Source of the DNA: Runella sp.
GTDB taxonomy: Bacteria; Bacteroidota; Bacteroidia; Cytophagales; Spirosomataceae
Length of the DNA stretch: 38,016 nt
Direction of reading: 5' to 3'
Assembly: GCA_023254175.1 (NCBI GenBank)
Contig: JALQYJ010000145.1
Coordinates: 1 to 38,016, forward strand
Shown: in pieces, positions 9,859-34,334 of the stretch
Numbering within the stretch: position 1 is the stretch's first letter
Layout of the letters: each line of letters opens with the position of its first letter
Translations under genes and position numbers: made by a program
Notes under the pieces: model-generated
Database searches by the model: none
The model's input: only the letters and a program-made list of their open reading frames with translations
Told to the model about the DNA's origin: nothing

Positions 9859-9879
9859 TTATCCACAAAGTTATCCACA
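9859..9879 (+). promoter_or_regulatory. Pair of perfect DnaA-box sequences
   Basis: TTATCCACA occurs at 9859-9867 and again at 9871-9879, with starts 12 bases apart and in the same orientation. The second overlaps the stop codon of the dihydroorotase homologue. A weaker TTTTCCACC follows. Two perfect 9-mers this close are unlikely by chance, but the second is partly coding and function is unproven. Confidence 0.5.
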
Positions 9880-17302: not shown

Positions 17303-17318
17303 CTCACCATTAGTAAAG

Positions 17319-18500
17319 ATGAACAACCACGAGATGAATTCTGCTGCCTCCAATAATTTACGACCGTCTGCCCAAGAGAGATGGGACAATATCAAAAATT
17401 GGCTGGGAACAAACCTCCAAGGAGATGTTATTATTTGGATAATTGTTGCGATTTTATCCCTCACTAGTTTACTTATTGTATACAGCGCAACTGGAACACT
17501 TGCTTATCAGCGCGGCGGAGGCTACCCCGAAGTTTTCTTGTTTAAGCACATTTTCTATACAAGTATTGGGTTGTTTGTGATGTGGTGGGTTCACCGCATC
17601 AATTACATTTATTTTTCTCGTCTTTCGCGAGCTGCTCTGCTCATTTCAATTCCTTTACTCATCTTGGTAAAAGTAGCAGGAGTTACCATCAACGGTGCCA
17701 CCCGCTGGATAGCTATTCCAGGGACTGGTTTTACCTTTCAGCCCGCCGATTTTGCCCGTTTGGCTCTTATTGCCAACCTTGCCGCCATGCTCGCCAAACG
17801 CCAACGAGTAGAGTACAGTTGGAAAATATTTGGTAAAATGATTTTGTGGGTAGGTATCATTTGCTTCTTCATTGCCCTCACGAGTACCTCTACGGCGGTT
17901 TTGATTGGTTTATCTTGTTTTTTGATGTTCTACATCGGGCGGGTACCTTCTAAGTACTTGGTGGTGATGATAGTAGCCATTGCAATAACGGGAGGATTAG
18001 GATTAGTGGCAGGTCAACGCCTCGAAACCGCCAAAGGCCGTATCGAGCGTTTTTTTAAAGACGAAGAATTTCAAGCCAAACAAGGTTTTATTGCCATTGC
18101 CAATGGCGGAACGTTAGGTCAAGGACTTGGCAACAGCCACCAAAGAAATTATCTCACCCAAGCCTATTCGGATTTTATTTATGCCATCATCGTCGAGGAA
18201 TATGGGCTTATCGGAGGAGTTTTTATCATGCTCCTTTATGCCATTTTACTCGTTCGAGGAGTACAAAATATTGGTTCTACTAACCGAGCCTTTGGTGGTT
18301 TATTGTCAGCAGGACTCACATTAAGTATTGGTTTACAAGCATTTACAAATATGGCGGTAGCTGTAGGAATTTTTCCTGTTACGGGTCAGCCGTTGCCTCT
18401 ACTTAGTATGGGGGGCACATCCGTATTTTTTACTTGTGTCTCACTCGGAATCATCCTTAGTGTAAGCAGAGGTGAAGCTGACGAAAGTGCCTTATTTTAA
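17319..18500 (+). CDS. ftsW: Septal peptidoglycan glycosyltransferase FtsW (SEDS)
   Basis: Integral membrane SEDS-family polymerase that builds glycan strands at the septum, working with a class B PBP. About 393 residues from ATG 17319; a longer frame to 17172 would overlap murD and is rejected. The start could also be ATG 17334. About ten membrane segments begin with DVIIWIIVAILSLTSLLIVY. SEDS hallmarks are present: TINGATRWIAIPGTGFTFQPADFARL, SDFIYAIIVEEYGLIGG (the region of the catalytic Asp loop) and VGIFPVTGQPLPLLSMGGTS. It lies between murD and murG as in most division clusters; the gap to murG is six bases. Confidence 0.96.
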   Translation: MNNHEMNSAASNNLRPSAQERWDNIKNWLGTNLQGDVIIWIIVAILSLTSLLIVYSATGTLAYQRGGGYPEVFLFKHIFYTSIGLFVMWWVHRINYIYFSRLSRAALLISIPLLILVKVAGVTINGATRWIAIPGTGFTFQPADFARLALIANLAAMLAKRQRVEYSWKIFGKMILWVGIICFFIALTSTSTAVLIGLSCFLMFYIGRVPSKYLVVMIVAIAITGGLGLVAGQRLETAKGRIERFFKDEEFQAKQGFIAIANGGTLGQGLGNSHQRNYLTQAYSDFIYAIIVEEYGLIGGVFIMLLYAILLVRGVQNIGSTNRAFGGLLSAGLTLSIGLQAFTNMAVAVGIFPVTGQPLPLLSMGGTSVFFTCVSLGIILSVSRGEADESALF

Positions 18501-18506
18501 AAAAAC

Positions 18507-19598
18507 ATGAAGAAAATAATCATAAGCGGCGGAGGCACTGGCGGGCATATTTACCCTGCTATTGCCATTGCAAACGCACTCAAATCTATTGACCCATCCA
18601 TCCAAATTTTATTTGTGGGAGCATTAGATAAAATGGAAATGGAAAAAGTACCCAAAGCAGGGTACGAAATTATTGGATTGCCTATTTCAGGGATTAAGCG
18701 AGAGCTTTCGGCAGATAACCTTTTATTTCCCTTCAAACTGACTCGAAGCTTGTTGAAGGCGCGAAGTATCATTAAAAGTTTTCAGCCTGACATTGCCATT
18801 GGAGTAGGAGGGTTTGCCAGCGGACCATTGCTAATGGTAGCTTCCCTAATGGGAATACCAACGCTCATTCAGGAGCAAAACTCATACGCAGGCATCACCA
18901 ATAAGCTTTTGGCGAAACGAGCTAAAGCCATTTGTGTTGCTTACCCAAACATGGAGGCTTTTTTTCCAAAAAACAAACTCAAACTGACTGGTAACCCCGT
19001 TAGAAGTGACATTTTGGACAGTTCTAGTAAACGTGCGGAAGCCTACAAACATTTTGGACTACAGCCTAATCATAAAACATTGCTAGTGATTGGAGGTAGT
19101 TTGGGTGCTAAAACCATCAACGAAAGTATAGAAGCGGGACTCAAAACAATTATTGATTCAGGCTATCAGGTGCTTTGGCAGACGGGAAAACCCTATGCTG
19201 AACGTGCCAAAGCAGCCGTTGAACACCTAAAAACCCCTTACGCAAAGGCATCTGATTTTATTTATGAAATGGATTTGGCTTATGCGTTGGCCGATGTAGT
19301 CGTTTCAAGAGCAGGTGCGTTGTCTGTTTCAGAATTGTGTTTAGTGGAAAAACCTGCGATTTTGGTTCCTTTTCCTTATGCTTCCGAAGACCACCAAACA
19401 AAAAATGCCATGAGCCTAGTTGAGCAAAATGCGGCTCTTTTAGTGAAAGACAAAGACGCAAAAGAGGAATTGGTGCAAACAACATTACGCTTATTACAAG
19501 ACAGTGGTAAGCAACAAGAATTGAGTAAAAATATAAAAAAAATAGCGAAACCAAACGCGGCAAAAGAAATTGCTGAAACCGTTTTAAGCTTGATTTAA
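18507..19598 (+). CDS. murG: UDP-GlcNAc transferase to lipid I
   Basis: Peripheral inner-membrane glycosyltransferase (GT28) that adds GlcNAc to lipid I, forming lipid II. 363 residues. The N-terminal glycine-rich loop GGGTGGHIYPA is at residues 8-18, a second loop is VIGGSLGAKTINE, and the donor site is VVSRAGALSVSELCLVEKPAILVPFPYASEDHQTKNA. The G-loop sequence IGVGGFASGP is also present. It is complete, with six bases between the ftsW stop and its ATG, so it is surely in the same transcript. Confidence 0.97.
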   Translation: MKKIIISGGGTGGHIYPAIAIANALKSIDPSIQILFVGALDKMEMEKVPKAGYEIIGLPISGIKRELSADNLLFPFKLTRSLLKARSIIKSFQPDIAIGVGGFASGPLLMVASLMGIPTLIQEQNSYAGITNKLLAKRAKAICVAYPNMEAFFPKNKLKLTGNPVRSDILDSSSKRAEAYKHFGLQPNHKTLLVIGGSLGAKTINESIEAGLKTIIDSGYQVLWQTGKPYAERAKAAVEHLKTPYAKASDFIYEMDLAYALADVVVSRAGALSVSELCLVEKPAILVPFPYASEDHQTKNAMSLVEQNAALLVKDKDAKEELVQTTLRLLQDSGKQQELSKNIKKIAKPNAAKEIAETVLSLI

Positions 19599-19654
19599 TC
19601 TCAACGAACTCTTGTCCATAGAAAGCAGATAAGAGATTGGTAACCAAACTAATA

Positions 19655-21037
19655 ATGAGCATCAACGATTTTAAATACGTCTATTTTCTTGGCATCGGAG
19701 GCATCGGCATGAGTGCGTTGGCTCGTTGGTTTGCCATCAATGGCTTTGCCGTTGCGGGTTATGACCGCACAGCTACTGCCTTGACGGACACTTTAGCCAA
19801 AGAAGGAATCTATGTTCACTTCGACGACGACGTGGCTTTGATTCCAACTGCATTTTTGCAAGATAGCTCTCAAACATTGGTTGTTTTTACCCCTGCAATT
19901 CCCGCTGACCATGTAGAATATAATTACCTTAAAAACAATGGATTTACGATTCAGAAACGATCTCAGGTGCTAGGACTGATTACAAGTGGAATGTTTACCA
20001 TTGGCGTAGCAGGTACTCACGGAAAGACCACAACCTCTTCCATGACGGCTCATCTTTTGCGCCATTCGGGAGTCAACTGTGCTGCATTTTTGGGGGGAAT
20101 TACCCAAAACTACGGCACGAACATGCTTTTAAATGCCCCCACAGACAACCTTAAGCAAGTGCCTTGTGTTGTCGAAGCCGATGAGTTTGACCGTTCATTT
20201 TTAACGCTTTTTCCTGAAATCGCCATCGTCACCTCTACAGATGCCGACCACCTAGATATTTATGGTAGTCATGATTCTGTTTTAGCTTCTTTTTCCGCTT
20301 ACGTGGGTCAAATTAAGCCCAGTGGACGACTTTTTATGCAAAAGGGGCTTCAGTTAGCCGAAAAAACCCAAGCTAGTGTATTCGAGTACTCCATTGATGC
20401 AGGAGATTACCACGCCGAAAACGTTCGAATTGAGGAGGCATGTTTTATATTCGATGCCGTTCATCCTAAAGGAATTATTAAGGGACTCAAGTTACACGTA
20501 CCTGGTTTTCATAATGTTGAAAATGCCATTGCCGCCATTGCAGTAGGCCTAGAAATAGGTTTAACGGATGAACAAATTCGTGCAGCAATTGAGTCATTTG
20601 GTGGCGTAAAACGTCGTTTTGAATATTACCTTAAAACTAATAAACACGTTTTAGTTGACGATTATGCCCACCATCCAGCCGAGGTAGCAGCATTTTTAAC
20701 ATCAGTCAAAGCACTTTATCCCAACAGAAAAGTAACTGCGATTTTTCAGCCTCATTTATATAGTCGTACCCGAGACTTTGCAGTTGAATTTGCTAAAAGT
20801 TTATCATTGGCAGATAGTATTATCTTATTGGATATTTATCCTGCCCGTGAGCTACCAATTGAAGGGGTAAGTTCCGATTTAATATTCCAAAACATAACAT
20901 GTGATAAAGTTCAATGTTTGAAGTCGGAGTTGATAGATATACTAAAAAAACGTACTTGTGATGTTGTTGCAACCATTGGTGCTGGCGATATAGATAGGTA
21001 CATTTTATCAATAAAAGAAGTTTTACAGACTACTTGA
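19655..21037 (+). CDS. murC: UDP-N-acetylmuramate-L-alanine ligase
   Basis: Cytoplasmic Mur ligase that attaches the first amino acid, L-alanine, to UDP-MurNAc. 460 residues from ATG 19655 (MSINDFKYVYFLGIGGIGMS); a longer reading from 19637 adds six residues and is less likely. The N-terminal GIGGIGMSALA is the nucleotide-binding loop, the P-loop is GTHGKTTTSS (from residue 120), and VEADEFDRSFL, STDADHLDIYGS and DDYAHHPAEV are MurC signatures. It lies between murG and ftsQ. Confidence 0.97.
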   Translation: MSINDFKYVYFLGIGGIGMSALARWFAINGFAVAGYDRTATALTDTLAKEGIYVHFDDDVALIPTAFLQDSSQTLVVFTPAIPADHVEYNYLKNNGFTIQKRSQVLGLITSGMFTIGVAGTHGKTTTSSMTAHLLRHSGVNCAAFLGGITQNYGTNMLLNAPTDNLKQVPCVVEADEFDRSFLTLFPEIAIVTSTDADHLDIYGSHDSVLASFSAYVGQIKPSGRLFMQKGLQLAEKTQASVFEYSIDAGDYHAENVRIEEACFIFDAVHPKGIIKGLKLHVPGFHNVENAIAAIAVGLEIGLTDEQIRAAIESFGGVKRRFEYYLKTNKHVLVDDYAHHPAEVAAFLTSVKALYPNRKVTAIFQPHLYSRTRDFAVEFAKSLSLADSIILLDIYPARELPIEGVSSDLIFQNITCDKVQCLKSELIDILKKRTCDVVATIGAGDIDRYILSIKEVLQTT

Positions 21038-21042
21038 AAAGC

Positions 21043-21807
21043 ATGAAGCGTTGGGTGTGGGTTATTTTAGGAGGATTAATAATAATATCGTCTGTCTTTT
21101 TTGTTGAACTTCAGCAAAATAGCAAACGCTGTAAGAATGTAGTTGTACAACTTGATAATAAAGCCGAGTACCCATTTTTTACTGAGAAAGATATCAAAAA
21201 TTCCATTACCTTACAAGGAGCAGATGTAATTGAAGGCATGAGTTTTTCAAATATCAATTTTAAAGGGCTAGAAAAAAGGGTCTTAAAAAACCGTTTGATA
21301 AAAAAATGTGATGTTTTTCGAGATTTATCTGGAAATTTGGTTGTGAAAATCGAACAACAACGTCCGATTGGACGTATTTTAGGAGGTTTGTCTAACAAAA
21401 ATCAGTCTATAACCGGTGAAATAGGGGGATACTTAACTGAACAAGGGGATATTATTCCATTATCTGGACGATTTGCTGCTCGCGTTGTAATTCTTTCTGG
21501 TGGTTTTTTTAAAAAATCAAAAAATATAAAATCCTCTACAGGTAAAAGTCTAATAGAGTTTTTAAAAAATCTCCAGCAAAATTCCTTTTGGAGGGCTCAA
21601 ATTACTGAAGTAGTAGTTGCCGAAGATGGGGAACTAACCCTTATCCCTCAGGTCGGGCAGCACCAAATTGATTTCGGACTACCCGAAGACGCTGAAATTA
21701 AGTTTGAAAAATTAAAAGTCTTTTATAAAACGGTACTTCCTGTTTCTGGATGGGAAAAGTACCACCGAGTAAGTGTAAAATTTAAGAATCAAATTGTGTG
21801 CGAATAA
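21043..21807 (+). CDS. ftsQ: Cell division protein FtsQ
   Basis: Bitopic division protein that links cytoplasmic ring and periplasmic synthesis proteins through FtsB/FtsL. 254 residues from ATG 21043; a TTG five codons earlier in register at 21034 overlaps murC and is less likely. It has one N-terminal membrane helix (VWVILGGLIIISSVFFVEL) followed by a POTRA-like segment (YPFFTEKDIKNSITL... RLIKKCDVFRDLSGNLVVKI) and the FtsQ beta domain. Sequence identity in FtsQ is low across phyla, so the call leans on position between murC and ftsA and on this topology. Base use is more AT-rich than in its neighbours. Confidence 0.9.
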   Translation: MKRWVWVILGGLIIISSVFFVELQQNSKRCKNVVVQLDNKAEYPFFTEKDIKNSITLQGADVIEGMSFSNINFKGLEKRVLKNRLIKKCDVFRDLSGNLVVKIEQQRPIGRILGGLSNKNQSITGEIGGYLTEQGDIIPLSGRFAARVVILSGGFFKKSKNIKSSTGKSLIEFLKNLQQNSFWRAQITEVVVAEDGELTLIPQVGQHQIDFGLPEDAEIKFEKLKVFYKTVLPVSGWEKYHRVSVKFKNQIVCE

Positions 21808-21839
21808 ATACTCAACACCATCAACCTATCCATAGCACC

Positions 21840-23204
21840 ATGTCAGAGCACGAATTTTATTTAGGAATAGACATTGGCAGTACCAAAGTAGCTGCAGTTT
21901 TAGCGAAGCCAAAAAGGTTAAGTAATCAAACTATGCTTCAAGTAATAGGAATGGGCTCGGCACGTAATGATGGTGTACACCGGGGTAACATAAATAACCC
22001 TATCAAAACCAAAGAAGCAATTCGACAAGCCCTTGAAATGGCTGCAAAAAAAGCCGAACGAACTGATTTACTCGCGCATACTCTGTCGGCAACAGTCAAT
22101 GTAAGTGGTACACATCTAGAAACCTCCTCTGAAACGGGCTCCGTTACCTGCCGTACCGCGTCCGTAAAAGGCGAAGATGTCGGATCCTTATTCGAAAATA
22201 TGCAGCAAACATTTGATTCTGATATGAATCAAATTATTCATTTACTTCCTTTGAAGTTTTCTGTTGGTGAGCAACACGAAATAGTTGATCCTGTTGGACA
22301 CATTGGCCTTAAACTTAGTGGTGATTTTAAGATTGTTACAGCAAAAAAATCAGCTTTGCATCAAATTAAAGATTCACTTCAAAAAGCCAATATTGAAGTT
22401 GACGAAGACGACGGTTTTGCAGCATCTCCGCTTGCGTCTGGGCTAGCCGTTTTGTCTGAAGACCATAAAAACTTAGGTGTCGTGCTTGTTGATATTGGCG
22501 GCGGAACAACAGACATTGCAATTTATCACGACGGGTTACTTCGGCACACGGTAGTATTGCCCTTTGGCGGAAATCACATTACAAATGACATCCGTGAAGG
22601 CTGCCACCTTACTATAGAAAGTGCCGAAGAAGCCAAAACAACACTAAGTGAAACTAACCCAGAAGCTTGTAGTTTGAACACGTTACTGGTAATTCCTACC
22701 GCTGAGGGTATTCCACCGATTGAAATTGTAGCACGAAACGTAGTCCTCATTGCTCGCGCTCGTTTACGTGAAATTGCCGCCCTCGTGTTAGCCGAAATCA
22801 AAAAAGCAGGTTTTGAACATAAACTGCGGGCCGGAATTGTATTAACGGGTGGTACTGCCAAAATCAATGGAATTGAAAATATTTTCCGTGAAGTAACGCA
22901 AATGTATGTTCAAATCGGTCGCCCTAAAAATTTAGAACGCAGCAATAGCGCTCTTGATACTCTCATTAGCGACCCCTCTTATACAACAGCTCTAGGATTG
23001 GCCTGGTCTAGTATAAAACCATTAGATAAGCGCGTGTCCAAATCGAAGCCAATACAAGAGCCAGAGAGAAAGAAAATGAGCAGTGGCTGGTCATTACCTG
23101 TTTTTGGGAAAACAGTTGTCAAAGATTTTAACATCAAAGAAATAGGTACTTTTATTTGGAATGGGCTTACTCAAGACGACATCAAAGGGCATGATAGTTA
23201 CTAA
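21840..23204 (+). CDS. ftsA: Cell division protein FtsA
   Basis: Actin-like ATPase that tethers FtsZ filaments to the membrane. 454 residues from ATG 21840, after the ftsQ stop; a GTG at 21798 would overlap ftsQ and is unlikely. Actin-fold motifs: phosphate 1 FYLGIDIGSTKVAAVLA, phosphate 2 VVLVDIGGGTTDIAIYHDG, and the adenosine motif GIVLTGGTAKINGIENIF. The 1C subdomain covers roughly residues 85-165. The C-terminus (IGTFIWNGLTQDD) could be the membrane-targeting helix but is short and acidic compared with E. coli. It precedes ftsZ by 45 bases. Confidence 0.95.
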   Translation: MSEHEFYLGIDIGSTKVAAVLAKPKRLSNQTMLQVIGMGSARNDGVHRGNINNPIKTKEAIRQALEMAAKKAERTDLLAHTLSATVNVSGTHLETSSETGSVTCRTASVKGEDVGSLFENMQQTFDSDMNQIIHLLPLKFSVGEQHEIVDPVGHIGLKLSGDFKIVTAKKSALHQIKDSLQKANIEVDEDDGFAASPLASGLAVLSEDHKNLGVVLVDIGGGTTDIAIYHDGLLRHTVVLPFGGNHITNDIREGCHLTIESAEEAKTTLSETNPEACSLNTLLVIPTAEGIPPIEIVARNVVLIARARLREIAALVLAEIKKAGFEHKLRAGIVLTGGTAKINGIENIFREVTQMYVQIGRPKNLERSNSALDTLISDPSYTTALGLAWSSIKPLDKRVSKSKPIQEPERKKMSSGWSLPVFGKTVVKDFNIKEIGTFIWNGLTQDDIKGHDSY

Positions 23205-23249
23205 CACAAACTAAAATATCCGTACCGATTTGTTTATATTTAATAAAAT

Positions 23250-24758
23250 ATGGTTTTTGCACGAAAAAACGTTTTTGAGCACGACTACGAGTTTGTTATG
23301 GAAGAGTCAACCCACTTAGACGATACCCCTATCATCAAAGTAATTGGTGTCGGAGGGGGTGGTAGCAATGCCGTCAACCACATGTATAAGAAAGGGATCA
23401 AGGATGTGGTGTTTGTGGTATGTAATACCGACAAACAGGCATTGATGCGTAGCCCTATCAATAACAAAATCCAATTAGGGGCTGAAAGTCTAAAAGGCTT
23501 AGGAGCTGGTACGGACTCCAACACTGGTCGCAGCGCTGCTGAAGAAAGTATTGAGTACATTCGCCAATTAATGCAGCCACCTACCCAAATGGTGTTTATC
23601 ACTGCGGGTATGGGAGGGGGCACAGGTACAGGAGCTGCTCCTGTGATTGCAAAAGTGGCAAAAGAAATGGGAATGCTGACTGTAGCTGTTGTTACTGCTC
23701 CTTATAGTTATGAAGGCCGCATCAAGAAAAATCAAGCGTTGGATGGTATTAATGACCTAAAAGAGCATTGTGATACTGTGTTGGTAATTCTTAACGATGA
23801 ACTGGCAAAATTGTATGGAAAATTACCCATTCTTCGTGCCTATGAACACGCCGACAATGTCTTATCTAACGCCGTAAAAAGTATCGCTGAAATTATTACG
23901 GTTCATGGAAGCGTAAACTCCGATTTCATGGACGTGAAAAAAGTACTTCAAGATGCAGGTACTTCTGTCATGAGTTCGGCGGTTTCAGCAGGAGAACATA
24001 GAGCTGAATTGGCGATTGAAGCAGCCCTCAATTCTCCTCTTCTCAACAACCGTGATATTCGTGGTGCTAAACGCATTCTTGTTACTCTGGCTTCGAGTAC
24101 CCAGGAAGAACATATGGCTACTCTCGACGAACAAATGATTATTACGGATTATATTGAAAATCTGATTGGAGACGAAGCCGACATGTGTAAAGTAGGTATT
24201 ATTTTTGACGATGCCCTTGGTGATCAATTGCTTGTCACTGTAATAGCGGCGGGTTTTGAGGATTCCCATTTGCCTTTTAACTACGATACTACCATAAAGT
24301 CACGAAGAGAACCTCTATCTTCTCCACTCCCACAAAATCAATCAATTGAACTGGCGCAAAATCTTAAAATTGGATTTGATTCAAAACAAACAACTGCGAC
24401 TAGTAGTAACTCACCTATTTCGATAACCCCCTCTAAACCCGTACCTACAGATGCTAAAATCGAAGTGAGGTCACCAATGAAGGAGCCCCCTAAAGTAATA
24501 ATACCTGAACCTCCGAAACCTTTTTTTGAGGAACTACCGCAACCATCCCCTCCGCCTACAATACAACAAAATACCGTTGAACCTCAGGAGGATCCTGAAA
24601 TTTTACGTCGGCTCGTTCATGAAATTTCTTACGGTAAGTACTCGGCAAATGAGCTTGATAAACCTGCGTTTTTACGTCAAAATGTAGTTTTATACCAAAA
24701 GCCTAATTTACCAGAAGAGGCATTTATTCCAATTCGTTTAGACAAGCATAAAAGATAA
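23250..24758 (+). CDS. ftsZ: Cell division GTPase FtsZ
   Basis: Tubulin-like GTPase that forms the division ring. 502 residues, longer than the roughly 380 of E. coli. The GTP-binding G-box is GGGTGTGAAP (from residue 122) and the N-terminal VIGVGGGGSNAVNHM is complete. The synergy loop region reads SVNSDFMDVKKVL, keeping the Asp. After the globular part (about residue 345) comes a Pro-rich linker with repeated EPPKP/PSPPP patterns. The conserved C-terminal peptide is recognisable as ELDKPAFLRQ but is followed by about 30 more residues, ending RLDKHKR. A second in-frame Met (17) could be the start. The AlkD-like gene begins three bases after its stop. Confidence 0.96.
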   Translation: MVFARKNVFEHDYEFVMEESTHLDDTPIIKVIGVGGGGSNAVNHMYKKGIKDVVFVVCNTDKQALMRSPINNKIQLGAESLKGLGAGTDSNTGRSAAEESIEYIRQLMQPPTQMVFITAGMGGGTGTGAAPVIAKVAKEMGMLTVAVVTAPYSYEGRIKKNQALDGINDLKEHCDTVLVILNDELAKLYGKLPILRAYEHADNVLSNAVKSIAEIITVHGSVNSDFMDVKKVLQDAGTSVMSSAVSAGEHRAELAIEAALNSPLLNNRDIRGAKRILVTLASSTQEEHMATLDEQMIITDYIENLIGDEADMCKVGIIFDDALGDQLLVTVIAAGFEDSHLPFNYDTTIKSRREPLSSPLPQNQSIELAQNLKIGFDSKQTTATSSNSPISITPSKPVPTDAKIEVRSPMKEPPKVIIPEPPKPFFEELPQPSPPPTIQQNTVEPQEDPEILRRLVHEISYGKYSANELDKPAFLRQNVVLYQKPNLPEEAFIPIRLDKHKR

Positions 24759-24760
24759 AG

Positions 24761-25468
24761 ATGAAAGGAATTGACCTCCTTCAGAAAGAGTTACATTCCC
24801 TAGGCAGCCCCGAAAAGGCTGCCTTTCTTTCTCGTTTTTTTAAAACAGGAAAAGGGCAATATGGCGAGGGCGACCTTTTTTTAGGAGTTACAATGCCCGA
24901 AATTAGAACGGTCGTAGGTCAATATTCACACCTTTCTCCTAAAGAATGGCAATTATTGCTTCACAATCCTTACCACGAGATTCGAATGACTTCGCTGATT
25001 GGGTTGATGAAGTGTTTTCAAAAAGCAAAAAAATTTCCTGAAATTCAACGTCAAATCTTTGAGTTCTACCTCGCTAATCTTGATTACATCAACAATTGGG
25101 ATTTAGTGGACGTTACATGTCGCAATATTGTAGGAGCGTATTTATTCAAACGAGACCGTGACATTTTGTACGAACTCGCCCAACACCCCCACCTTTGGGC
25201 GCAGCGAGTTGCTATAGTGTCTACATGGTATTTTATCAAAAATAACCAGTTTAGCGATACACTGAAAATTGCCGAACTTTTATTAACTCATTCTCACGAC
25301 CTTATTCACAAAGCAGTAGGATGGATGCTACGCGAGGTAGGAAAACGTGACGACCTCGTCTTAGAAGAGTTTTTGGACACCTATACTCTACAAATGCCAC
25401 GCACTACTTTACGATACGCCATTGAGCGGTTTCCTGAGTCAAAACGTAAGTATTATCTATCACTTTGA
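24761..25468 (+). CDS. AlkD-like DNA alkylation repair protein
   Basis: A 235-residue all-helical HEAT-like repeat protein of the DNA alkylation repair (AlkD) family, which excises N3- and N7-alkylated purines. The characteristic block is LDYINNWDLVDVTCRNIVGAYL, with Trp118 and Asp119 at the positions of the catalytic WD region, followed by WAQRVAIVSTWYFIK and HDLIHKAVGWMLREVGKRD. It begins three bases after ftsZ and so is co-transcribed with the division cluster, though its role is unrelated. A promoter for accD lies just past its stop. The family call is firm; substrate range is not. Confidence 0.9.
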   Translation: MKGIDLLQKELHSLGSPEKAAFLSRFFKTGKGQYGEGDLFLGVTMPEIRTVVGQYSHLSPKEWQLLLHNPYHEIRMTSLIGLMKCFQKAKKFPEIQRQIFEFYLANLDYINNWDLVDVTCRNIVGAYLFKRDRDILYELAQHPHLWAQRVAIVSTWYFIKNNQFSDTLKIAELLLTHSHDLIHKAVGWMLREVGKRDDLVLEEFLDTYTLQMPRTTLRYAIERFPESKRKYYLSL

Positions 25469-25497
25469 CACTCGGATTAATTTCTTACGTATCTTTG
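25464..25497 (+). promoter_or_regulatory. Candidate promoter for accD
   Basis: TTTGACA begins at 25464 and TATCTTTG at 25490-25497 matches TAnnTTTG exactly, 22 bases after TTTG. The implied start near 25504 leaves a leader of about 85 bases before the accD ATG at 25592. This is one of the better Bacteroidota-type promoter matches in the window. Confidence 0.5.
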
Positions 25498-25591
25498 GCG
25501 CGTCTTAAAAAAGCCGATAAATGCTATTGAGTTTGATTATCAGCGTCTTATCAAAACTCAAAGAACACAAATCAAAACTCGAATCTAACTC

Positions 25592-26434
25592 ATGTCTTGG
25601 TTTACTAGAAAAGAAAGGGGCATTCAGACGCCCACCGAAATGAAACGCGAAGCTCCCGATGGGCTTTGGTATCAGTGCCCCAGCTGCAAGCATGTCATGC
25701 ACACACGTGAACACAAAATAAATGCGTACACGTGCGTAAAGTGTAACTACCACGAAAAAATTGGTTCGGAAGCCTATTTTAGTATCCTTTTTGATAACGC
25801 CGAATATACCGAACTCGATGCCAATATGCTCTCGGGGAATCCTCTCAATTTTGAAGATACAAAAAAGTACCCCGACCGTATCCGTGACACGATAAAGAAA
25901 ACAGGTCTTAAAGATGCCGTTCGAACCGCGTATGGAAAAATGGATGAACTCGACCTTGTCGTAAGTTGCATGGATTTCAACTTCATCGGAGGTTCAATGG
26001 GGTCGGTGGTGGGAGAAAAGATAGCTCGTGGTATTGACCACGCACTACAAAACCGTAAACCATTTTTGATGATATCTCGCTCGGGTGGAGCTCGTATGAT
26101 GGAAGCAGGATATTCGCTTATGCAAATGGCGAAAACATCCGCAAAATTAGCGCTATTGTCAGAAGCTCAAATCCCTTACATTTCATTGCTAACCGATCCT
26201 ACCACGGGGGGGGTGACTGCTTCCTACGCTATGCTTGGTGATTTTAACATTGCTGAACCAGGTGCTCTTATTGGTTTTGCTGGGCCTCGAGTTATTAGAG
26301 AAACCATTGGTAAGGATTTACCAAAAGGCTTTCAAAGTGCTGAGTTCGTTCTAGAGCACGGCTTTCTTGATTTTATAGTTGATCGTAAAGATTTGAAAGA
26401 TAAACTAGCTAGTTTACTTCGAATGCTCCAATAA
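25592..26434 (+). CDS. accD: Acetyl-CoA carboxylase carboxyltransferase beta subunit
   Basis: Cytoplasmic subunit that, with AccA, moves the carboxyl group from biotin to acetyl-CoA, forming malonyl-CoA for fatty acid synthesis. 280 residues, normal length. The N-terminal four-Cys zinc ribbon is intact: CPSC at 29-32 and CVKC at 48-51. The crotonase-fold core shows [56 protein letters not shown] and [12 protein letters not shown]. It has its own promoter candidate and a terminator directly after, so is probably monocistronic. Confidence 0.97.
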
Positions 26435-26441
26435 TTTATTC

Positions 26442-26478
26442 ACTTTCTGGAGGGTAATCTACTTTCCAGAAAGTTTTT
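26442..26478 (+). terminator. Intrinsic terminator after accD, abutting next start
   Basis: ACTTTCTGGA (26442-26451) and TCCAGAAAGT (26465-26474) form a perfect 10-bp stem with a 13-base loop, followed by TTTTC. It ends the accD transcript, but the start codon of the radical SAM gene is only 11 bases past the stem, so it may also act as a leader attenuator for that gene. Confidence 0.8.
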
Positions 26479-26485
26479 CTTCTCT

Positions 26486-27457
26486 ATGCGTCTTGTATCC
26501 CATCCTGTCTTATGTAATTACTACGTAACGTACCGTTGTAACGCCAGTTGTAGTTTTTGTGATATTTGGGAACGCCCTTCTCCTTATATAACTCTTGAGC
26601 AAGCCAAGGCAAACCTTGCAGATTTAAAAAAACTCGGTGTAAAAGTCGTTGACTTTACGGGAGGAGAGCCATTATTACATCGCCAACTCGACGAGCTCCT
26701 CAAAGAATGTAAACGACTCAGGCTTTTAACCACAGTTACGACGAACGGGCTTTTGTACCCTAAATACGCTCATCGCTTACGAGGCTTAGTGGATATGCTT
26801 CACTTTTCACTTGATTCCCCCGACCGCGATGAACATGACACCTCTCGCGGAGTAAAATGTTTTGATAAGGTAATGGAATCTATTAAAGTAGCAGCGTCCT
26901 TAGGGGAGCGTCCAGACATACTTTTTACCGTCTTTGAATCGAATATTCACCAGATAGAAAGGGTTTGGCAAGAAATATGCAAACCTCACGGCCTTGTTCT
27001 TATTCTAAATCCCGTTTTTGAGTATAATAATGTGGGTTCTCAGCTATCTCCAGAGGCATTAAAACAGTTGAGACAGTGGGGAAAAAAAAGCAATGTCTAT
27101 CTCAACGATGCCTTTATTCAACTTCGTCTTGATGGCGGAAATCATATCGATTCCCCCGTTTGTTTGGCAGGAAGCACCACCATTGTCATCTCCCCTGAAA
27201 ACAAACTGGTATTACCCTGTTACCATTTAGGGTTAAAGGAATTCCCAATTAACAACCAATTGTACTCTTTATATTTATCTGAAGAAGTTCAAAAATTAGC
27301 AGCTCTTGAGGGTCGTTTACCTGCTTGTGAAGGATGTGCTATCAATTGCTACATGCAACCTTCTTTTGCTGTAACTATAAATAAATACTGGTGGAAAGCA
27401 CTTCCAAGTACGCTCAAATACAATCGTATCAAAGGTACTTGGAAACAACTCTTTTGA
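26486..27457 (+). CDS. Radical SAM protein with C-terminal Cys cluster
   Basis: A 323-residue radical S-adenosylmethionine enzyme. The [4Fe-4S] motif is CNASCSFC (Cys18, 22, 25), followed by the glycine-rich DFTGGEPLLH and TVTTNGLL. The C-terminus has further cysteines (VCLAGSTT, LPCYHLGL and ACEGCAINCYMQP), the arrangement of SPASM or twitch domains that hold extra clusters. Such enzymes often modify peptides or lipids; no precursor peptide or partner is evident, so the substrate is unknown. The start is fixed: no other Met precedes the cluster and no in-frame start exists just upstream. A 247-base AT-rich gap (27458-27704) with no gene follows. Confidence 0.88.
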   Translation: MRLVSHPVLCNYYVTYRCNASCSFCDIWERPSPYITLEQAKANLADLKKLGVKVVDFTGGEPLLHRQLDELLKECKRLRLLTTVTTNGLLYPKYAHRLRGLVDMLHFSLDSPDRDEHDTSRGVKCFDKVMESIKVAASLGERPDILFTVFESNIHQIERVWQEICKPHGLVLILNPVFEYNNVGSQLSPEALKQLRQWGKKSNVYLNDAFIQLRLDGGNHIDSPVCLAGSTTIVISPENKLVLPCYHLGLKEFPINNQLYSLYLSEEVQKLAALEGRLPACEGCAINCYMQPSFAVTINKYWWKALPSTLKYNRIKGTWKQLF

Positions 27458-27704
27458 TACTTCACTGATTCTTCCTTAATTTTATGGCATAATTTTAAAA
27501 GCTAACTCATTAATTTTGAGGAAGTAAGCTATTTATTGTACTCTCTTTCCAATGATTTAATGTATTGTTTACTAGCTCATTTTTATGTCAATTATTGAGC
27601 CCTAACAAAAAGTTAAAACACGCTGATTTTCAGTAATTTACAAATCAAAAAATGCTTATTGTCGAGCATAAAGTTATTTTTCTACTACCCCTATTTTTAC
27701 TCCA

Positions 27705-28130
27705 ATGATTCAATTTTTCAACGAAGACGTAGAGTTCAAAGTCCCTAATCCTCGTAAGACCAAGCTCTGGCTCAAAAATATTATCGAGTCAGAAGGATTT
27801 GGGTTGAACCAAATAAATTACATTTTTTGTTCAGACGAATATTTACTAAGTATAAATCAACAATATCTGAACCACGATTTTTATACCGATATTATCACTT
27901 TTGATAATTCTGACGAAGAACAGACTATTGAAGGTGATATCTTTATTAGTATAGATCGAATCAAGGAAAATGCTGAGCAGTTATCAAAAGTATTTAATGA
28001 GGAATTATTACGGGTATTAGTTCATGGCGTCCTTCATTTAGTTGGATATGATGACCATGAAGATAAAGACGAATTATTGATGAGAGAAAAAGAAGATTCT
28101 TATATTTCGCTTTTTCAATTCATTAAATAA
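27705..28130 (+). CDS. ybeY: Endoribonuclease / rRNA maturation factor YbeY
   Basis: Single-strand-specific metallo-endoribonuclease used in 16S rRNA 3'-end maturation and ribosome quality control. 141 residues. The core is LNHDFYTDIITFDN, IEGDIFISIDRI and the metal motif HGVLHLVGYDDHED (from residue 107). Proteobacterial YbeY reads HGxLHLxGYDH; here the position of the third His is Asp117, with a His one further on. Bacteroidota homologues, as I recall, also have Asp there, so this is probably normal for the lineage. The 91 bases between it and mnmG contain the parS-like palindrome. Confidence 0.92.
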   Translation: MIQFFNEDVEFKVPNPRKTKLWLKNIIESEGFGLNQINYIFCSDEYLLSINQQYLNHDFYTDIITFDNSDEEQTIEGDIFISIDRIKENAEQLSKVFNEELLRVLVHGVLHLVGYDDHEDKDELLMREKEDSYISLFQFIK

Positions 28131-28140
28131 GGCGTACTAC

Positions 28141-28164
28141 AAAATGTTTCATGTGAAACATTTT
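28141..28164. promoter_or_regulatory. parS-like ParB-binding palindrome
   Basis: Bases 28145-28160 read TGTTTCATGTGAAACA, one base from the parS consensus TGTTTCACGTGAAACA. The symmetry extends outward to 24 bases (four A before, four T after), broken only at the two central bases. It lies in the 91-base gap between ybeY and mnmG. ParB-parS complexes normally mark the origin region and recruit ParA and SMC. Confidence 0.75.
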
Positions 28165-28221
28165 TAAATTTCTCTACAAAACAAAAATTTTTACGACTTT
28201 TAAATTTTCAAAATAAAAAAT

Positions 28222-30084
28222 ATGTTTCCAAAATATGATGTGATTGTAGTAGGAGCTGGGCATGCAGGATGCGAAGCAGCGGCGGCAGCGGCCAATATGG
28301 GCTCCAAGGTTTTACTCATCACCATGAATATGCATACCATAGCTCAAATGTCTTGCAACCCTGCAATGGGAGGCGTTGCGAAAGGACAAATTGTAAGAGA
28401 AATAGATGCACTCGGAGGACAGTCAGGCATTATTAGTGACAAAACGATGATTCAATTCCGAATGTTAAATCGCTCCAAGGGGCCTGCAATGTGGTCACCT
28501 CGATGCCAAAGTGACCGAATGCGATTTGCAGAAGAATGGAGAATAACCTTGGAACAAACGCCCAACGTTGATTTTTGGCAGGATACGGCAAAAGAAATTA
28601 TAGTAAAAAACAAAAAAGCCGTAGGAGTAAAAACCTCATTGGGAATAGAAATTTCGGCAAAAGCGGTTGTACTAACCAACGGCACATTTCTTAATGGTTT
28701 AATTCATATTGGAGAAAAACAATTCGGAGGAGGTAGAGTAGGAGAGAAGGCAGCGACTGGAATTACCGAGCAACTGATTGAACTGGGTTTTGAATCAGGA
28801 CGAATGAAGACAGGAACACCTCCAAGAGTAGATGGGCGTTCGCTGGATTATACAAAGATGGAAGAACAACCTGGGGATGAAATTCCAAGTAAATTTTCCT
28901 ACACCGACACACCAAAACTAGCACAACAAAGAAGCTGCTGGATAACTTATACCAATGAAAAGGTACACGAAGTTTTAAGAACAGGGTTTAACAAGTCACC
29001 CATGTTTACAGGGCGTATCAAAGGGCTTGGGCCTAGATACTGCCCATCAGTGGAAGACAAAATCAATCGTTTTGCAGATAAAGATAGTCACCAGATATTT
29101 GTTGAACCCGAAGGATGGGTCACTGTTGAAATGTATATCAATGGTTTTTCAACTTCGCTTCCAGAAGAGGTACAGTACAAAGCTATGAGGCTAATTCCTG
29201 GATTTGAAAACGCCAAAATGTTCCGACCAGGTTATGCTATTGAGTACGACTATTTCCCACCTACTCAATTAAAGCTTACCTTAGAAACTCACTTGATTGA
29301 GAATTTATTCTTCGCAGGACAAATCAACGGAACCACTGGATACGAAGAAGCCGCTTGTCAAGGACTCATCGCAGGAATCAATGCCCACCAAAATGCGCAC
29401 GAATTAGACACCTTCATTTTAAAAAGGTCAGAAGCATATATTGGGGTTTTGATTGATGATCTAGTTAACAAAGGGACGGAAGAGCCATACCGAATGTTTA
29501 CATCGAGAGCCGAGTACCGAACCCTGCTTCGTCAAGATAATGCAGATATTCGACTTACAGCACTTGGACACCAAATAGGCTTAGCAAGTGACGCTCGTTT
29601 AGAAAGAGTCCAAAAGAAAGTGGCGAATACAGAAAAAATTTTAGAAGAACTTGAGAAAGTAAAAGTTACGCCCAATGACGTAAATTCAATATTGACTGAA
29701 ATAGGTACATCTCCAATCAGAGAGAAACAACCACTTTACCAATTGTTAAAACGGCCAGATATTGAGATTGAAGACGTAAAAAAACTCAATGAAACATTTG
29801 CTGAATTCCTCAATAGATTTGACGAAGAATCGGCCGAGCAGGCTATGATTAAAGTGAAATACGAAAGCTACATTGAGAAAGAGCGCCTAATGGTTGAAAA
29901 AATGAATAAGCTAGAAGACCTAGAAATTATTCCAACGTTTGACTATGATAAAGTACCTGCGCTCTCTTTTGAAGGACGACAAAAATTGAAAACTATTCGC
30001 CCACATACTCTCGGGCAAGCATCGCGCATCAGCGGAGTAAGCCCTTCGGATATTTCAGTACTACTAATTCACTTAGGTCGATAA
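28222..30084 (+). CDS. mnmG: tRNA uridine 5-carboxymethylaminomethyl modification enzyme
   Basis: FAD-dependent subunit (GidA) that with MnmE installs the cmnm5 group on the wobble uridine of several tRNAs. 620 residues, normal length. The Rossmann FAD site is VIVVGAGHAGCEAA (residues 7-20). MnmG signatures include MSCNPAMGGVAKGQIVREIDALGG, RMLNRSKGPAMWSPRCQSDR, GRMKTGTPPR, GRIKGLGPRYCPSVEDK and FFAGQINGTTGYEEAACQGL, with RTLLRQDNADIRLT near the C-terminal third. It is preceded by the parS-like site; gidA is a frequent neighbour of replication origins. A strong terminator follows. Confidence 0.98.
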   Translation: MFPKYDVIVVGAGHAGCEAAAAAANMGSKVLLITMNMHTIAQMSCNPAMGGVAKGQIVREIDALGGQSGIISDKTMIQFRMLNRSKGPAMWSPRCQSDRMRFAEEWRITLEQTPNVDFWQDTAKEIIVKNKKAVGVKTSLGIEISAKAVVLTNGTFLNGLIHIGEKQFGGGRVGEKAATGITEQLIELGFESGRMKTGTPPRVDGRSLDYTKMEEQPGDEIPSKFSYTDTPKLAQQRSCWITYTNEKVHEVLRTGFNKSPMFTGRIKGLGPRYCPSVEDKINRFADKDSHQIFVEPEGWVTVEMYINGFSTSLPEEVQYKAMRLIPGFENAKMFRPGYAIEYDYFPPTQLKLTLETHLIENLFFAGQINGTTGYEEAACQGLIAGINAHQNAHELDTFILKRSEAYIGVLIDDLVNKGTEEPYRMFTSRAEYRTLLRQDNADIRLTALGHQIGLASDARLERVQKKVANTEKILEELEKVKVTPNDVNSILTEIGTSPIREKQPLYQLLKRPDIEIEDVKKLNETFAEFLNRFDEESAEQAMIKVKYESYIEKERLMVEKMNKLEDLEIIPTFDYDKVPALSFEGRQKLKTIRPHTLGQASRISGVSPSDISVLLIHLGR

Positions 30085-30107
30085 ATTTTTTTCTAAGAAT
30101 AATATAC

Positions 30108-30139
30108 AAAAGGGGCTCAATTTGAAGCCCCTTTATTTT
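30108..30139 (+). terminator. Intrinsic terminator after mnmG
   Basis: AAAGGGGCT (30109-30117) pairs with AGCCCCTTT (30126-30134), a perfect 9-bp stem with an eight-base loop, followed by ATTTTTG. It is 25 bases past the mnmG stop. Confidence 0.85.
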
Positions 30140-30191
30140 TGCCTAACCAGACTGTAGGCAATAAACTCATTTTAAAAGATGTTAATTTGTG

Positions 30192-30219
30192 AGGGCTAAC
30201 AAAAGCCCTTTTTATTTTT
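30192..30219 (+). terminator. Second terminator-like hairpin before lipoprotein gene
   Basis: AGGGCT (30192-30197) pairs with AGCCCT (30204-30209) and is followed by TTTTATTTTTG. The T-run contains TATTTTTG at 30213-30220, an exact TAnnTTTG -7 match, 20 bases before the ATG of the lipoprotein gene, so the site could serve as promoter as well as terminator. TTTG at 30186-30189 is a possible -33 element, 23 bases upstream. Confidence 0.55.
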
Positions 30220-30240
30220 GTTAAAAATTTCGCCCAATAC

Positions 30241-31902
30241 ATGAGCTCATTTAATATAAAACAATCAGTAAATCTTCTTTTTACCTTCAGCTTACTGGCT
30301 ACGGTTTATTGCTTCTTATTGTTAGGCTGCTCTCAGCCCATTTCGCCAACGGGAGGAAAGCGTGATATAACTCCCCCAAAACTGATAAAGAGCATACCTA
30401 AAAATAAGCAAACCAATTACAAAGGAAAATTCATCGAACTTGAGTTTGACGAATATATTGTTGCAGAAAACTTACAACAAAAACTATTGATTACTCCCGA
30501 CCCAGGCGAGTACGAATCCAAGGCAAAACCTACGAGTGTTCGTCTTACTTTTAAAAAAACGTTAGATACAGATAAGACATTCTCGTTTTCGTTTGGCGAT
30601 GCCATCAAAGATTTTAGCGAGAAAAATCCTGCTAAGAATTTACGTCTTGTTTTTAGTACTGGAGTCGGAATTGATTCGGCACTCGTTAGGGGAGAGGTTA
30701 TCGACTTACAAACAAATAAGCCGCTGTTAGACGTACTAGTTGGGCTATACCCACATTCAGATACCCTCAACATTGAAAAAATAAAGCCCATTTATTTTAC
30801 AAGGTCAGATAGCTCAGGGAGATTTAGTATCGAAAATATTCAACCCAATATCTATCGCCTCGTTGCATTTGATGACAAAAACCGCTCTTTAACCTATAAT
30901 ATAAAAAGCGAGAGAGTTGCATATTTAAGGGACAGTCTGGTGATAAAAGATTCTACGCAATTCTCAGTCGCTTCACTTAAGCTGTTTTTTTCTAATCTTA
31001 CACCCCCCAAAGTAAAAAATACCCTTCCAAGAACCTACTATTATTCTGTCAATTATGATAAAGGGTTTGTCGATTATAAAGTAAAGTTTGACAATCCAAA
31101 TGACTCAATTCCTTACTTTCAAAATAGCCCGACAGAGCTAAAGTTTTTTAATACAAAAAATCGTAAGGATACATTGGTCGTTAAAATAAGCCTCAGAGAC
31201 TCTATTGGTTTAACGTTTGAGCATGTTCAAAAAATCAAATTTCGAGAAGTTCGAAGTACTGGAAAAAATAACGATGGTAATAAAGAACCCTTTGAAATGA
31301 AGACCAACTTACAGGAGGGTAATGAAATTGAGCCTCGTCAATTTACATTAAAACTTACTTTTAATAAACCATTAGCAGAAAGTCGCCTTAGCCAAATCCA
31401 GCTCATTAGCGATAGTGTAAAAACAGAGAAATTACAACCCAGTGATTTTTTGTGGAGCAATAACCGTACGGTTTTAACCTTAACTCATCCTATTACAGCT
31501 AGAAAGTTGTTAAAAGTTATGATTCCTAAAAGTACATTTTTCAGCGTTGAAAATGATACTATTGCTGAACGAATCTACCAATTGCCCATTATGGAGGAAG
31601 AAAATTATGGCGTACTAGAAGGCGAAATCAAAGGAGCAAGCCAATCTTTTATCGTCGAACTTCTCGACGATAAATTCGAAGTAGTCAAGTCATCAATCAA
31701 AACACCGTTTCAGTTCAACTACCTCAAACCAGCAGTGTATAATCTTCGGATAGTTGTGGATGAAAATAAAAATGGGAAATGGGATACAGGAGACTTCAAG
31801 ACTCGAAAACTACCAGAACCTATCATTTTTTACCCAGATACAATCAAAGTGAAGAAGAATTTTGTATTAAGTGGGCTAGACATAGACTTATCCACAAAAT
31901 AA
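30241..31902 (+). CDS. Ig-like-domain lipoprotein
   Basis: A 553-residue probable surface or periplasmic lipoprotein. After a hydrophobic leader the lipobox is LLLGC, followed by SQPISPTGGKRDITPPKLIK, the standard opening of a Bacteroidota family with an N-terminal Big_5-type Ig-like domain (FIELEFDEYIVAENLQQ... VRLTFKKTLDTDKTFSFSFG). A middle part (about residues 165-240) resembles a carboxypeptidase-regulatory-like fold (SSGRFSIENIQPNIYRLVAF). A second Ig-like copy lies around 360-430 and a beta domain at the end contains VDENKNGKWDTGDF, a Ca-binding-like loop. Function unknown. The last codons include a perfect DnaA box (31888-31896), so the gene runs into the origin-like region. Confidence 0.85.
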   Translation: MSSFNIKQSVNLLFTFSLLATVYCFLLLGCSQPISPTGGKRDITPPKLIKSIPKNKQTNYKGKFIELEFDEYIVAENLQQKLLITPDPGEYESKAKPTSVRLTFKKTLDTDKTFSFSFGDAIKDFSEKNPAKNLRLVFSTGVGIDSALVRGEVIDLQTNKPLLDVLVGLYPHSDTLNIEKIKPIYFTRSDSSGRFSIENIQPNIYRLVAFDDKNRSLTYNIKSERVAYLRDSLVIKDSTQFSVASLKLFFSNLTPPKVKNTLPRTYYYSVNYDKGFVDYKVKFDNPNDSIPYFQNSPTELKFFNTKNRKDTLVVKISLRDSIGLTFEHVQKIKFREVRSTGKNNDGNKEPFEMKTNLQEGNEIEPRQFTLKLTFNKPLAESRLSQIQLISDSVKTEKLQPSDFLWSNNRTVLTLTHPITARKLLKVMIPKSTFFSVENDTIAERIYQLPIMEEENYGVLEGEIKGASQSFIVELLDDKFEVVKSSIKTPFQFNYLKPAVYNLRIVVDENKNGKWDTGDFKTRKLPEPIIFYPDTIKVKKNFVLSGLDIDLSTK

Positions 31903-32460
31903 TTCACAATTCACACATGATGTGGAGAAGCTAATACGCCTATTGGCTCATTTTTTGTAAGTTTATAAAAAAGCCGAGGTAAGTTTTAAATTGTGAAACG
32001 TCGTTTTCACAATTGAGAGATATGGAGGATAAAATGTGTACAAAGTTGTGGATAACTGTTTTTCATTCACATAAGTTAGTGGATAACCCGGGGATAAAGG
32101 TGTCGACAACCTTTTTAAAATGTGGAGAAATATTTGTCCATAATCATCATGTGGGAATCCACATACGTTTTACACATTCTTTCAAGGCATTTTTCACACT
32201 GTATTTTGTGGAAAAAAAATCATCCACAACGTTGATAACACTATCCACAATCCACTTTATAATGTGAATAATTGTTTATTTACTTGAAAAACAGTAATTT
32301 CAGTTGTAAAAAAAAATAAAATAAAGTGGATAACCTTATATTTTATTCACAAATACGTTTTAGAAAAAAGTGGATAACCCGTGAATAAGTTATTTTTCCA
32401 CTTTTCCACGGCTCTAATGAATTTTAATAGTTTTAAAAAAATATTATTTATTGTTTTATA
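31888..32460. other. oriC: Probable chromosomal replication origin (oriC)
   Basis: A 558-base gene-free stretch crowded with DnaA-box sequences (consensus TTATCCACA). Perfect: 31888-31896 (+) and 32047-32055 (-). One mismatch: 31921-31929 (-), 32078-32086 (-), 32121-32129 (-), 32207-32215 (-), 32220-32228 (+), 32241-32249 (+), 32325-32333 (-), 32343-32351 (+), 32369-32377 (-). There is a 26-base palindrome at 31989-32014 and a 19-base one at 32096-32114. AT-rich unwinding-type tracts lie at about 32258-32325 and 32412-32460. Two further perfect boxes follow at 34107-34115 and 34309-34317. A parS-like site lies 3.7 kb upstream. dnaA itself is not in the window. This is inferred from sequence alone. 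Confidence 0.75.
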
Positions 32461-34299
32461 ATGGGAACAGAAAAAGTGTGTATAACCCCAAACCAGGTGT
32501 GGATACTACTTGTGGGGCTAGTAATGTTATTGTTCGTCGATACTAGCTATGCTCAAAGCGATGCAGATTTAGCAGATGCGTATTTTCAAAAAGGAGAATG
32601 TGACAAGGTCGTATCGCTTTATCAAAAAGTCTTACGAAAAGACTTTAACAAAATTTATTTGAGACGTTACGTCAATTGTTCAATTAAACTGAAGGATTTT
32701 GAAGATGCTGAAAAGTTTTTTAAACGTCAGCAAAAATCAGATGCCCGATTTGGGTATTTATACACATTGTACTGGGGACGTATGCTTGAGCAAACAGGAC
32801 AGATGCCTCAAGCAATGCAGAAGTACGAAGAAAGCCTAGCACAAATCCCCTCTAAAGACATCAATGCCTATAAAGAACTATCTGATGAGTTTAGGGAAAT
32901 AGACAATACAGACGCAGCAATTGCAGCCTTACTGAAGGGGAGACAGGTTGTAGGAAATGAAACCATTTTCAAAATGGAACTAGCTTCGCTTTATGCCCAA
33001 ACTGGTAAAATAGAACAAATGATTGAAGAATTGTTGAGTTTGGGAATAGCAATTCAAAATAAGGAAGTCATTCAAAATTATTTGCAGGATTTTCTGAAAG
33101 ATGAAAAAGACCAAGCAAAGTTTGAAAAGGTTTTGTATGAGAAAATTCAACGGCAACCAAACGAAACTTTTTATGCAGAAATGCTTATTTGGTTTTTTAC
33201 ACAAAAAAAGCATTTCGGAAAAGCATTCATCCAAGAACGAGCACTTGACAGAAGACTAAAATACAACGGAACCAAAGTGTTTGATTTGGGAAATTTGGCC
33301 TTGCAAAACAAGGACTACAACGCAGCGGTTCAATCATTTGATTACCTAATCAAAGAATATCCACAAGGGCAATTGTATCCATATGCTCGCCGAATGGTCA
33401 TTGTAGCCCGTGAAGAACAAGTTAAAAATACATTTCCGATTGAAAAAATGAGTGTAAGAAAATTAATTGAAGATTATAGGAAGTTATTGAGTGAACTTGG
33501 GCAAAACAATCGGACACTTGAAGCGATGCGTAGTATGGCCAATTTATACGCCTTCTACATTGATGACAAAGATTCGGCCATTGTGATTCTTCAAGAGGCT
33601 GTAAAGATTGGGCGTGCCGAAAGCGATTTTATTGATAAATGTAAATTGGATTTAGGGGACATCTATTTATTGAAAAATGAGCCTTGGGAATCCACATTGT
33701 TATACTCACAAGTGGAAAAATCACAAAAAGAGACACCACTAGGGTATGAGGCTAAACTCAGAAACGCGCGACAGTATTACTATACGGGGGATTTTGAACT
33801 GTCAAAAGCATTACTTGATATATTGAAAATGGCGACTTCAAGAGAAATCGCCAATGATGCAGGCTCATTAAGTTTATTAATTCAAGATAATACGGGTTTA
33901 GATACGTCAGAAGACGCGATGAAAGAATATGCGGCAATTGACCTGCTTTTGTATCAAAATCAAACAGAGCTAGCGCTAGGCCTCTTAAATGAGATGCTGA
34001 AAAAATATAAAGACCATCCACTGACTGATGAAATACTATGGCTAAAGGCAAAAACATACGCCAAAATAGGAGACAACGCAAAAGCAGTGGAAAACCTGCA
34101 GGAGATTGTGGATAAGTTTTCGGTAGATATACATGGGGATGATGCACTGTACATGATGGCAGATTTGTACCAAAATAGATTAAAGGATAAAGATAAGTCA
34201 ATGGAACTTTACCAAAAACTTCTCGAAAAATACCCAGCAAGTATCTATGCCGCCGATGCAAGAAAAAGGTTTAGGCAGTTAAGAGGCGATAGTCTTTAA
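32461..34299 (+). CDS. Secreted TPR-repeat protein
   Basis: A 612-residue exported protein rich in tetratricopeptide repeats. The signal peptide runs to about residue 32 (VWILLVGLVMLLFVDTSYAQ). Repeats are spread throughout, for example LADAYFQKGECDKVVSLYQK near the start, NLALQNKDYNAAVQSFDYLI, ILWLKAKTYAKIGDNAKAVE and DALYMMADLYQNRLKDKDKS near the end, where the pattern resembles BamD/YbgF-type outer-membrane-assembly scaffolds. The specific role is unknown. Its ATG directly follows the AT-rich end of the origin-like region, and it is read away from it, co-directional with the fork. It contains a perfect DnaA-box sequence at 34107-34115 and may be co-transcribed with the phosphatase gene. 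Confidence 0.85.
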   Translation: MGTEKVCITPNQVWILLVGLVMLLFVDTSYAQSDADLADAYFQKGECDKVVSLYQKVLRKDFNKIYLRRYVNCSIKLKDFEDAEKFFKRQQKSDARFGYLYTLYWGRMLEQTGQMPQAMQKYEESLAQIPSKDINAYKELSDEFREIDNTDAAIAALLKGRQVVGNETIFKMELASLYAQTGKIEQMIEELLSLGIAIQNKEVIQNYLQDFLKDEKDQAKFEKVLYEKIQRQPNETFYAEMLIWFFTQKKHFGKAFIQERALDRRLKYNGTKVFDLGNLALQNKDYNAAVQSFDYLIKEYPQGQLYPYARRMVIVAREEQVKNTFPIEKMSVRKLIEDYRKLLSELGQNNRTLEAMRSMANLYAFYIDDKDSAIVILQEAVKIGRAESDFIDKCKLDLGDIYLLKNEPWESTLLYSQVEKSQKETPLGYEAKLRNARQYYYTGDFELSKALLDILKMATSREIANDAGSLSLLIQDNTGLDTSEDAMKEYAAIDLLLYQNQTELALGLLNEMLKKYKDHPLTDEILWLKAKTYAKIGDNAKAVENLQEIVDKFSVDIHGDDALYMMADLYQNRLKDKDKSMELYQKLLEKYPASIYAADARKRFRQLRGDSL

Positions 34300-34334
34300 A
34301 AAATTGAGTTATCCACAAAAAACAAGTTTAAAAA

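Follow-up and report, generated by a model that had tools for sequence, protein, structure and literature searches.

Where on its main chromosome does Runella start replication, and could that place be an AT-rich stretch crowded with DnaA boxes that lies apart from dnaA? The question is raised by the 38,016 nucleotides analysed here (the window; contig C49 in a draft genome of 4.85 Mb and 199 contigs), where the interval 31888–32460 had been marked by an initial annotation, made from the letters alone, as a probable replication origin. We find that this interval is very probably the oriC from which the main chromosome of a Runella species, or of its near kin, is replicated in both directions, and that the annotation is borne out by a conserved box cluster, a skew switch in two relatives (G010 and G016), an adjacent parS-like site and the lack of any box cluster at 13 dnaA loci.

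Within these 573 bases, which are single copy in the genome, we counted 12 DnaA boxes (sites that differ from TTATCCACA at no more than one position), of which 2 are perfect (31888–31896 on the plus strand and 32047–32055 on the minus strand) and 10 carry one mismatch. Dinucleotide-preserving shuffles of the same bases (n = 2,000) gave a mean of 0.29 boxes and a maximum of 4, so that the cluster stands well above chance, as expected of a DnaA-dependent oriC. The earlier count of two perfect and at least nine one-mismatch boxes is therefore sound, but their placement in gene-free DNA needs a small correction: the first box overlaps the final codons of the preceding gene, which encodes a Big_5/DUF2141 protein according to a domain scan (30241–31902, plus strand), and the gap between the flanking genes spans 31903–32460 (558 bp). 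The gap itself contains a mechanically called TTG frame of 84 aa. The GC content of 31888–32460 is 29%, compared with 41% for the whole window. On the other side follows a gene for a TPR-repeat protein (32461–34299, plus strand), with two extra one-mismatch boxes just inside it (32477 and 32498), and the two outlying perfect boxes that had been annotated were found again, one within this gene (34107–34115, minus strand) and one between it and a His_Phos gene (34309–34317, plus strand).

Nothing comparable exists elsewhere in the window, as had been proposed: 573-base stretches away from the locus, started every 100 bases, hold at most 3 boxes each. The pair of perfect boxes singled out as next best (9859 and 9871, plus strand) was also recovered; the two lie 12 bp apart at 9859–9879, just upstream of a DUF4199 gene (9307–9855, minus strand) and followed by more TTCCAC words, a placement from which that gene is possibly DnaA-regulated. 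At the level of the genome, the contig carries 6 of the 63 perfect boxes on 0.8% of the sequence (a control pattern totals 47), and in DNA without the locus from seven relatives (115 stretches of 20 kb, a few of them partly overlapping) no 600 bp contain more than 4 boxes. Scans of the window for Rfam families (gathering threshold) and tRNAs returned no match.

To place the cluster among relatives, we used the adjoining TPR gene, identified by domain scan and synteny, as a marker. It was matched in 55 of 59 genomes (the window's own included), and a protein search in named genomes gave 13 loci, 8 of them at 80–92% identity, all Runella records, which assigns the window to that genus or to a very close neighbour. 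Boxes upstream of the gene were counted in the best 30 of the 55 loci, one of which, with only 13 bp of upstream sequence, was left out; all 29 usable loci, the window among them, have 5–21 boxes within 750 bp, compared with shuffle means of 0.18–0.44. A second collection comprised the window and 40 fetched loci, 41 in all (G010 and other genomes are not among them); mnmG is found at most 7.5 kb upstream of the TPR gene in 34, and 30 of these 34 have at least 5 boxes in 600 bp (G031, G039, G045 and G050 have only 1–3). The remaining seven are order-level loci without mnmG within 7.5 kb, six of which have 0–1 boxes and one, G049, has 12. As box counts follow the presence of mnmG (30/34 versus 1/7), the cluster mostly goes with the mnmG-to-TPR locus. 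The exceptional cluster of G049 (locus L197) is found roughly 640 bp upstream of the match to the TPR gene.

Conservation extends to single bases. In an alignment of 14 sequences (13 of the genus plus G018), 65 of 99 columns inside the window's boxes are invariant, compared with 132 of 459 outside; the perfect box at 31888 is kept in 13 of the 14 (not in L014), and that at 32047 is identical in 12. The mnmG gene itself (gidA; 28222–30084, plus strand; Pfam GIDA, E value 2.8e-166) is indeed close to the cluster, although it does not stand directly next to it as annotated, with the Big_5/DUF2141 gene intervening. On the far side, the TPR gene is followed by 3.7 kb before the window's contig ends (38016), and in seven relatives (G014, G020, G023, G027, G028, G030 and G036) the contig likewise stops 3.4–3.7 kb beyond the gene, a shared position that suggests a long repeat there, for example an rRNA operon.

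The GC skew of the 38-kb window alone is not decisive. The genes ftsW, murG, ftsA, ftsZ, ybeY and mnmG (17172–31902) all read toward the origin and would, if the origin is right, be head-on to the leftward fork; this orientation of the division and mnmG genes probably flattens the skew of the window. Longer sequences of relatives are more informative. In G010, a member of the same genus with a 7.43-Mb contig, 19 of 19 spaced stretches have the sign expected for an origin at the cluster, and in a contiguous 400 kb the cumulative G−C minimum falls at 5,863,323, about 15 kb from the start of the orthologous cluster (5,848,097) and separated from it by a nearly flat stretch. Across these 400 kb, the skew is negative in each of the ten 20-kb windows as far as 5,848,000, stands at +0.002 in the one that follows and remains positive in the other nine. 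In G016, from the same family, 19 of 19 stretches likewise fit at a coarser spacing (one of them at −0.000), with the sign switch only bracketed between about −325 kb (the stretch with skew −0.000) and +185 kb.

An origin at the skew minimum is thus seen in G010 and G016, and the pattern is weaker or unclear in five other relatives: 8 of 10 stretches fit in G013 (misses at −2651 and −2111 kb), in G015 (−134 and +3246 kb) and in G040 (−961 and −131 kb), 6 of 10 in G033, and 12 of 19, without a clear pattern, in the complete order-level genome G045, which has 2 boxes and no cluster. The wrong signs on the near side come from G015 (−134 kb) and G040 (−131 and −961 kb). Rearrangement could be the cause of the weaker fits in the distant genomes, and we infer that the window's own genome behaves like G010 and G016. 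Two further features were observed close to the origin of G010, a 107-bp unit repeated 17 times with 97% matches (L047, 2079–3913; about 8 kb away) and a match to the Rfam c4-2 sRNA (RF02944; L113, 9424–9522; about 11 kb away).

The absence of dnaA from the window, from which a separate origin had been deduced, is confirmed, as the gene is on contig C95. Its product carries the N-terminal, ATPase and C-terminal domains of DnaA, the box-binding one included. The locus does not adjoin dnaA in seven relatives either, where the two are 0.8–2.9 Mb apart (2906 kb in G010, 1325 in G016, 1692 in G013, 1774 in G015, 1219 in G033, 2786 in G040 and 761 in G045), and at 13 dnaA loci of 2.5–3.5 kb each we found no box cluster, with at most 2 boxes per 600 bp. 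The record of G003 is numbered from dnaA: on its main contig the gene begins at base 540, some 2 Mb from the origin. The origin is thereby placed for a genus with at least one record numbered from dnaA, and its position matters for coverage-based growth-rate estimates, assembly orientation and replicating vectors.

A parS-like site lies 3.7 kb from the cluster, between ybeY and mnmG and upstream of the latter (28145–28160, plus strand). It differs at one position from TGTTTCACGTGAAACA, which we take to be the parS consensus, and is the only match to it with at most two mismatches in the 4.85-Mb genome. A control pattern searched at the same stringency also matches 1–5 times per genome, so that the evidence for parS is the position of the match. 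In a genome-wide search of nine genomes, a match lies no more than about 5 kb from the locus in five (G000, G010, G003, G033 and G040), with matches elsewhere too in G003, G010 and G040; the sole match in G009 is away from the locus, and none was found in G013, G015 and G016. Restricting the search to the 700 bp upstream of mnmG, we found a parS-like match with at most four mismatches in 33 of 34 loci (15 with at most two; G013 has five mismatches), whereas 200 shuffled palindromes match in about 1.2 loci on average, and in most loci the site is 25–120 bp from mnmG. Each of the four genomes searched has one ParB gene. A nearby parS-like sequence and a ParB gene in the genome point to a parS-linked origin, with 28145–28160 as the predicted ParB site.

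The end of the cluster beside the TPR gene has the layout of an unwinding edge. In the genus alignment, a tandem pair of degenerate DnaA boxes, TTTTCCAC TTTTCCACG (32394–32410, plus strand), is followed by a GC-rich step, TAAT, TAATAGTTT and then AT-rich DNA; the pair reads TTATCCACTTATCCACG in G003 and G007. The 50 bp adjoining this last conserved pair (32412–32461) are the least stable of the whole window (mean −0.967 versus −1.315 kcal/mol per step), and judged by this predicted stability an easily opened AT-rich element stands next to the boxes, making 32411–32461 the probable DNA unwinding element. A similar layout is kept in relatives of the family, and of 41 loci, 23 show a pattern describing it close to the TPR gene, a count that is descriptive only because the pattern was written after the alignment had been inspected; it has 29 background matches in 1.94 Mb, both strands. 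The BUS rules (box, spacer, DnaA-trios) ask for three or more trios no further than 16 bp from a box (PMC8287927). Applied to the window, they yield a two-mismatch box in the tandem pair, a spacer of 10 and five trios, a number that 604 of 2,000 shuffled tails also reach; the arrangement is present in 13 of 16 hand-picked genomes.

Besides the boxes, the cluster contains two palindromic elements, neither of them a DnaA box: TGTGAAAC-N5-TTTCACA (31992–32011) and the imperfect palindrome TTGAAAAACAGTAATTTCAG (32284–32303). Each is present in 12 of the 14 aligned sequences, the former missing from G011 and G005 and the latter from G005 and G018, which leaves G005, a member of the same genus, without both. 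Searching both strands of the whole genomes G000, G010 and G003, we found TGTGAAAC-N5-TTTCACA (at most one mismatch) and TTGAAAAACAGTAATTTCAG (exact) at the origin only; at two mismatches, TTGAAAAACAGTAATTTCAG has six matches outside the origin in the three genomes combined. Among 41 loci, neither element was found at the origin of other family members (the first is loosely matched in G015, and 12 bases of the second are matched in G031, both far from the origin), and the 1.94 Mb of background, scanned on a single strand, contain neither. Tentatively, and with the odds rather against it, the two may be docking sites of an origin protein peculiar to this lineage, which would govern initiation instead of the regulators familiar from E. 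coli or Bacillus; they offer a tangible starting point for studying how origins are controlled in Bacteroidota.

Dense DnaA boxes alone are no proof of initiation, and loci that titrate or regulate DnaA, of which datA and DARS of E. coli are examples, would carry them with the true origin elsewhere. The sampled skew of G015 and G040, with no switch at the locus, would fit such a role. Against it stand the skew switch, which is no more than some 15 kb away from the cluster in G010 and brackets it in G016, the adjoining parS-like site, the coincidence of the cluster's end with the window's least stable 50 bp and the dnaA loci, which hold no rival cluster; with these in hand, we consider a titrating or regulating locus very improbable.

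Still less probable, hardly worth a serious wager, is that the boxes belong to a promoter region through which DnaA controls the TPR gene. The cluster does reach the start codon and boxes continue into the gene, but a regulated promoter needs fewer than twelve boxes over 558 bp, the skew switch would be left unexplained, and the cluster is absent from six of the seven order-level loci without mnmG within 7.5 kb (G049 being the exception). Equally slim is the chance that a genome drafted in 199 contigs has here the origin of a replicon, integrated or separate, that brings its own initiator: the window holds core chromosome genes (ftsW, murG, ftsA, ftsZ, ybeY and mnmG), the 20 window proteins scanned include no plasmid initiator, and the orthologous locus sits on the 7.43-Mb contig of G010 and on the single 7.03-Mb contig of G016.

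If the interval is the chromosomal origin, initiation would most likely proceed as follows. DnaA made from the gene on C95 would bind the perfect and near-perfect boxes and fill the weaker ones, then extend through the tandem pair at 32394–32410 onto one strand of the AT-rich 32411–32461, which would thereby be opened from the box side for helicase loading. ParB would capture the new origins at the parS-like site beside mnmG for segregation.

How does this compare with origins described elsewhere? That of B. subtilis adjoins dnaA, unlike the Runella locus. With the DnaA-trio origins of B. subtilis and H. pylori, as described in PMC8287927 and PMC8235120, the window shares a box pair, a GC-rich step and an AT-rich unwinding edge. 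The edge of G015 and G029 has the sequence box-GGCC-TAAT, GGCC being given for B. subtilis in PMC8235120. It differs from those systems in that its trio run is not above chance by itself. In E. coli, oriC is away from dnaA, as is the Runella locus. Origins usually adjoin dnaA, and that of Yersinia lies between gidA and mioC, as in E. coli, according to PMC10225481; the enterobacterial oriC described there is likewise near gidA/mnmG and has TTATCCACA-type boxes. Unlike it, the Runella origin is separated from mnmG by one gene, has the TPR gene and not mioC on its other side, and features a parS-like site.

Closer to home, Prevotella intermedia is a distant relative of Runella within the phylum. 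Its oriC, and those of Bacteroidetes more widely, likewise have multiple DnaA boxes at a skew transition with dnaA not nearby, and DoriC commonly places Bacteroidetes origins far from dnaA, as stated in PMC4755523. A DoriC prediction for the Runella origin may well exist already. The Runella locus thus very probably is an ordinary DnaA-type origin far from dnaA and, since dnaA-distant Bacteroidetes origins are already in print (PMC4755523), a further case of a known kind.
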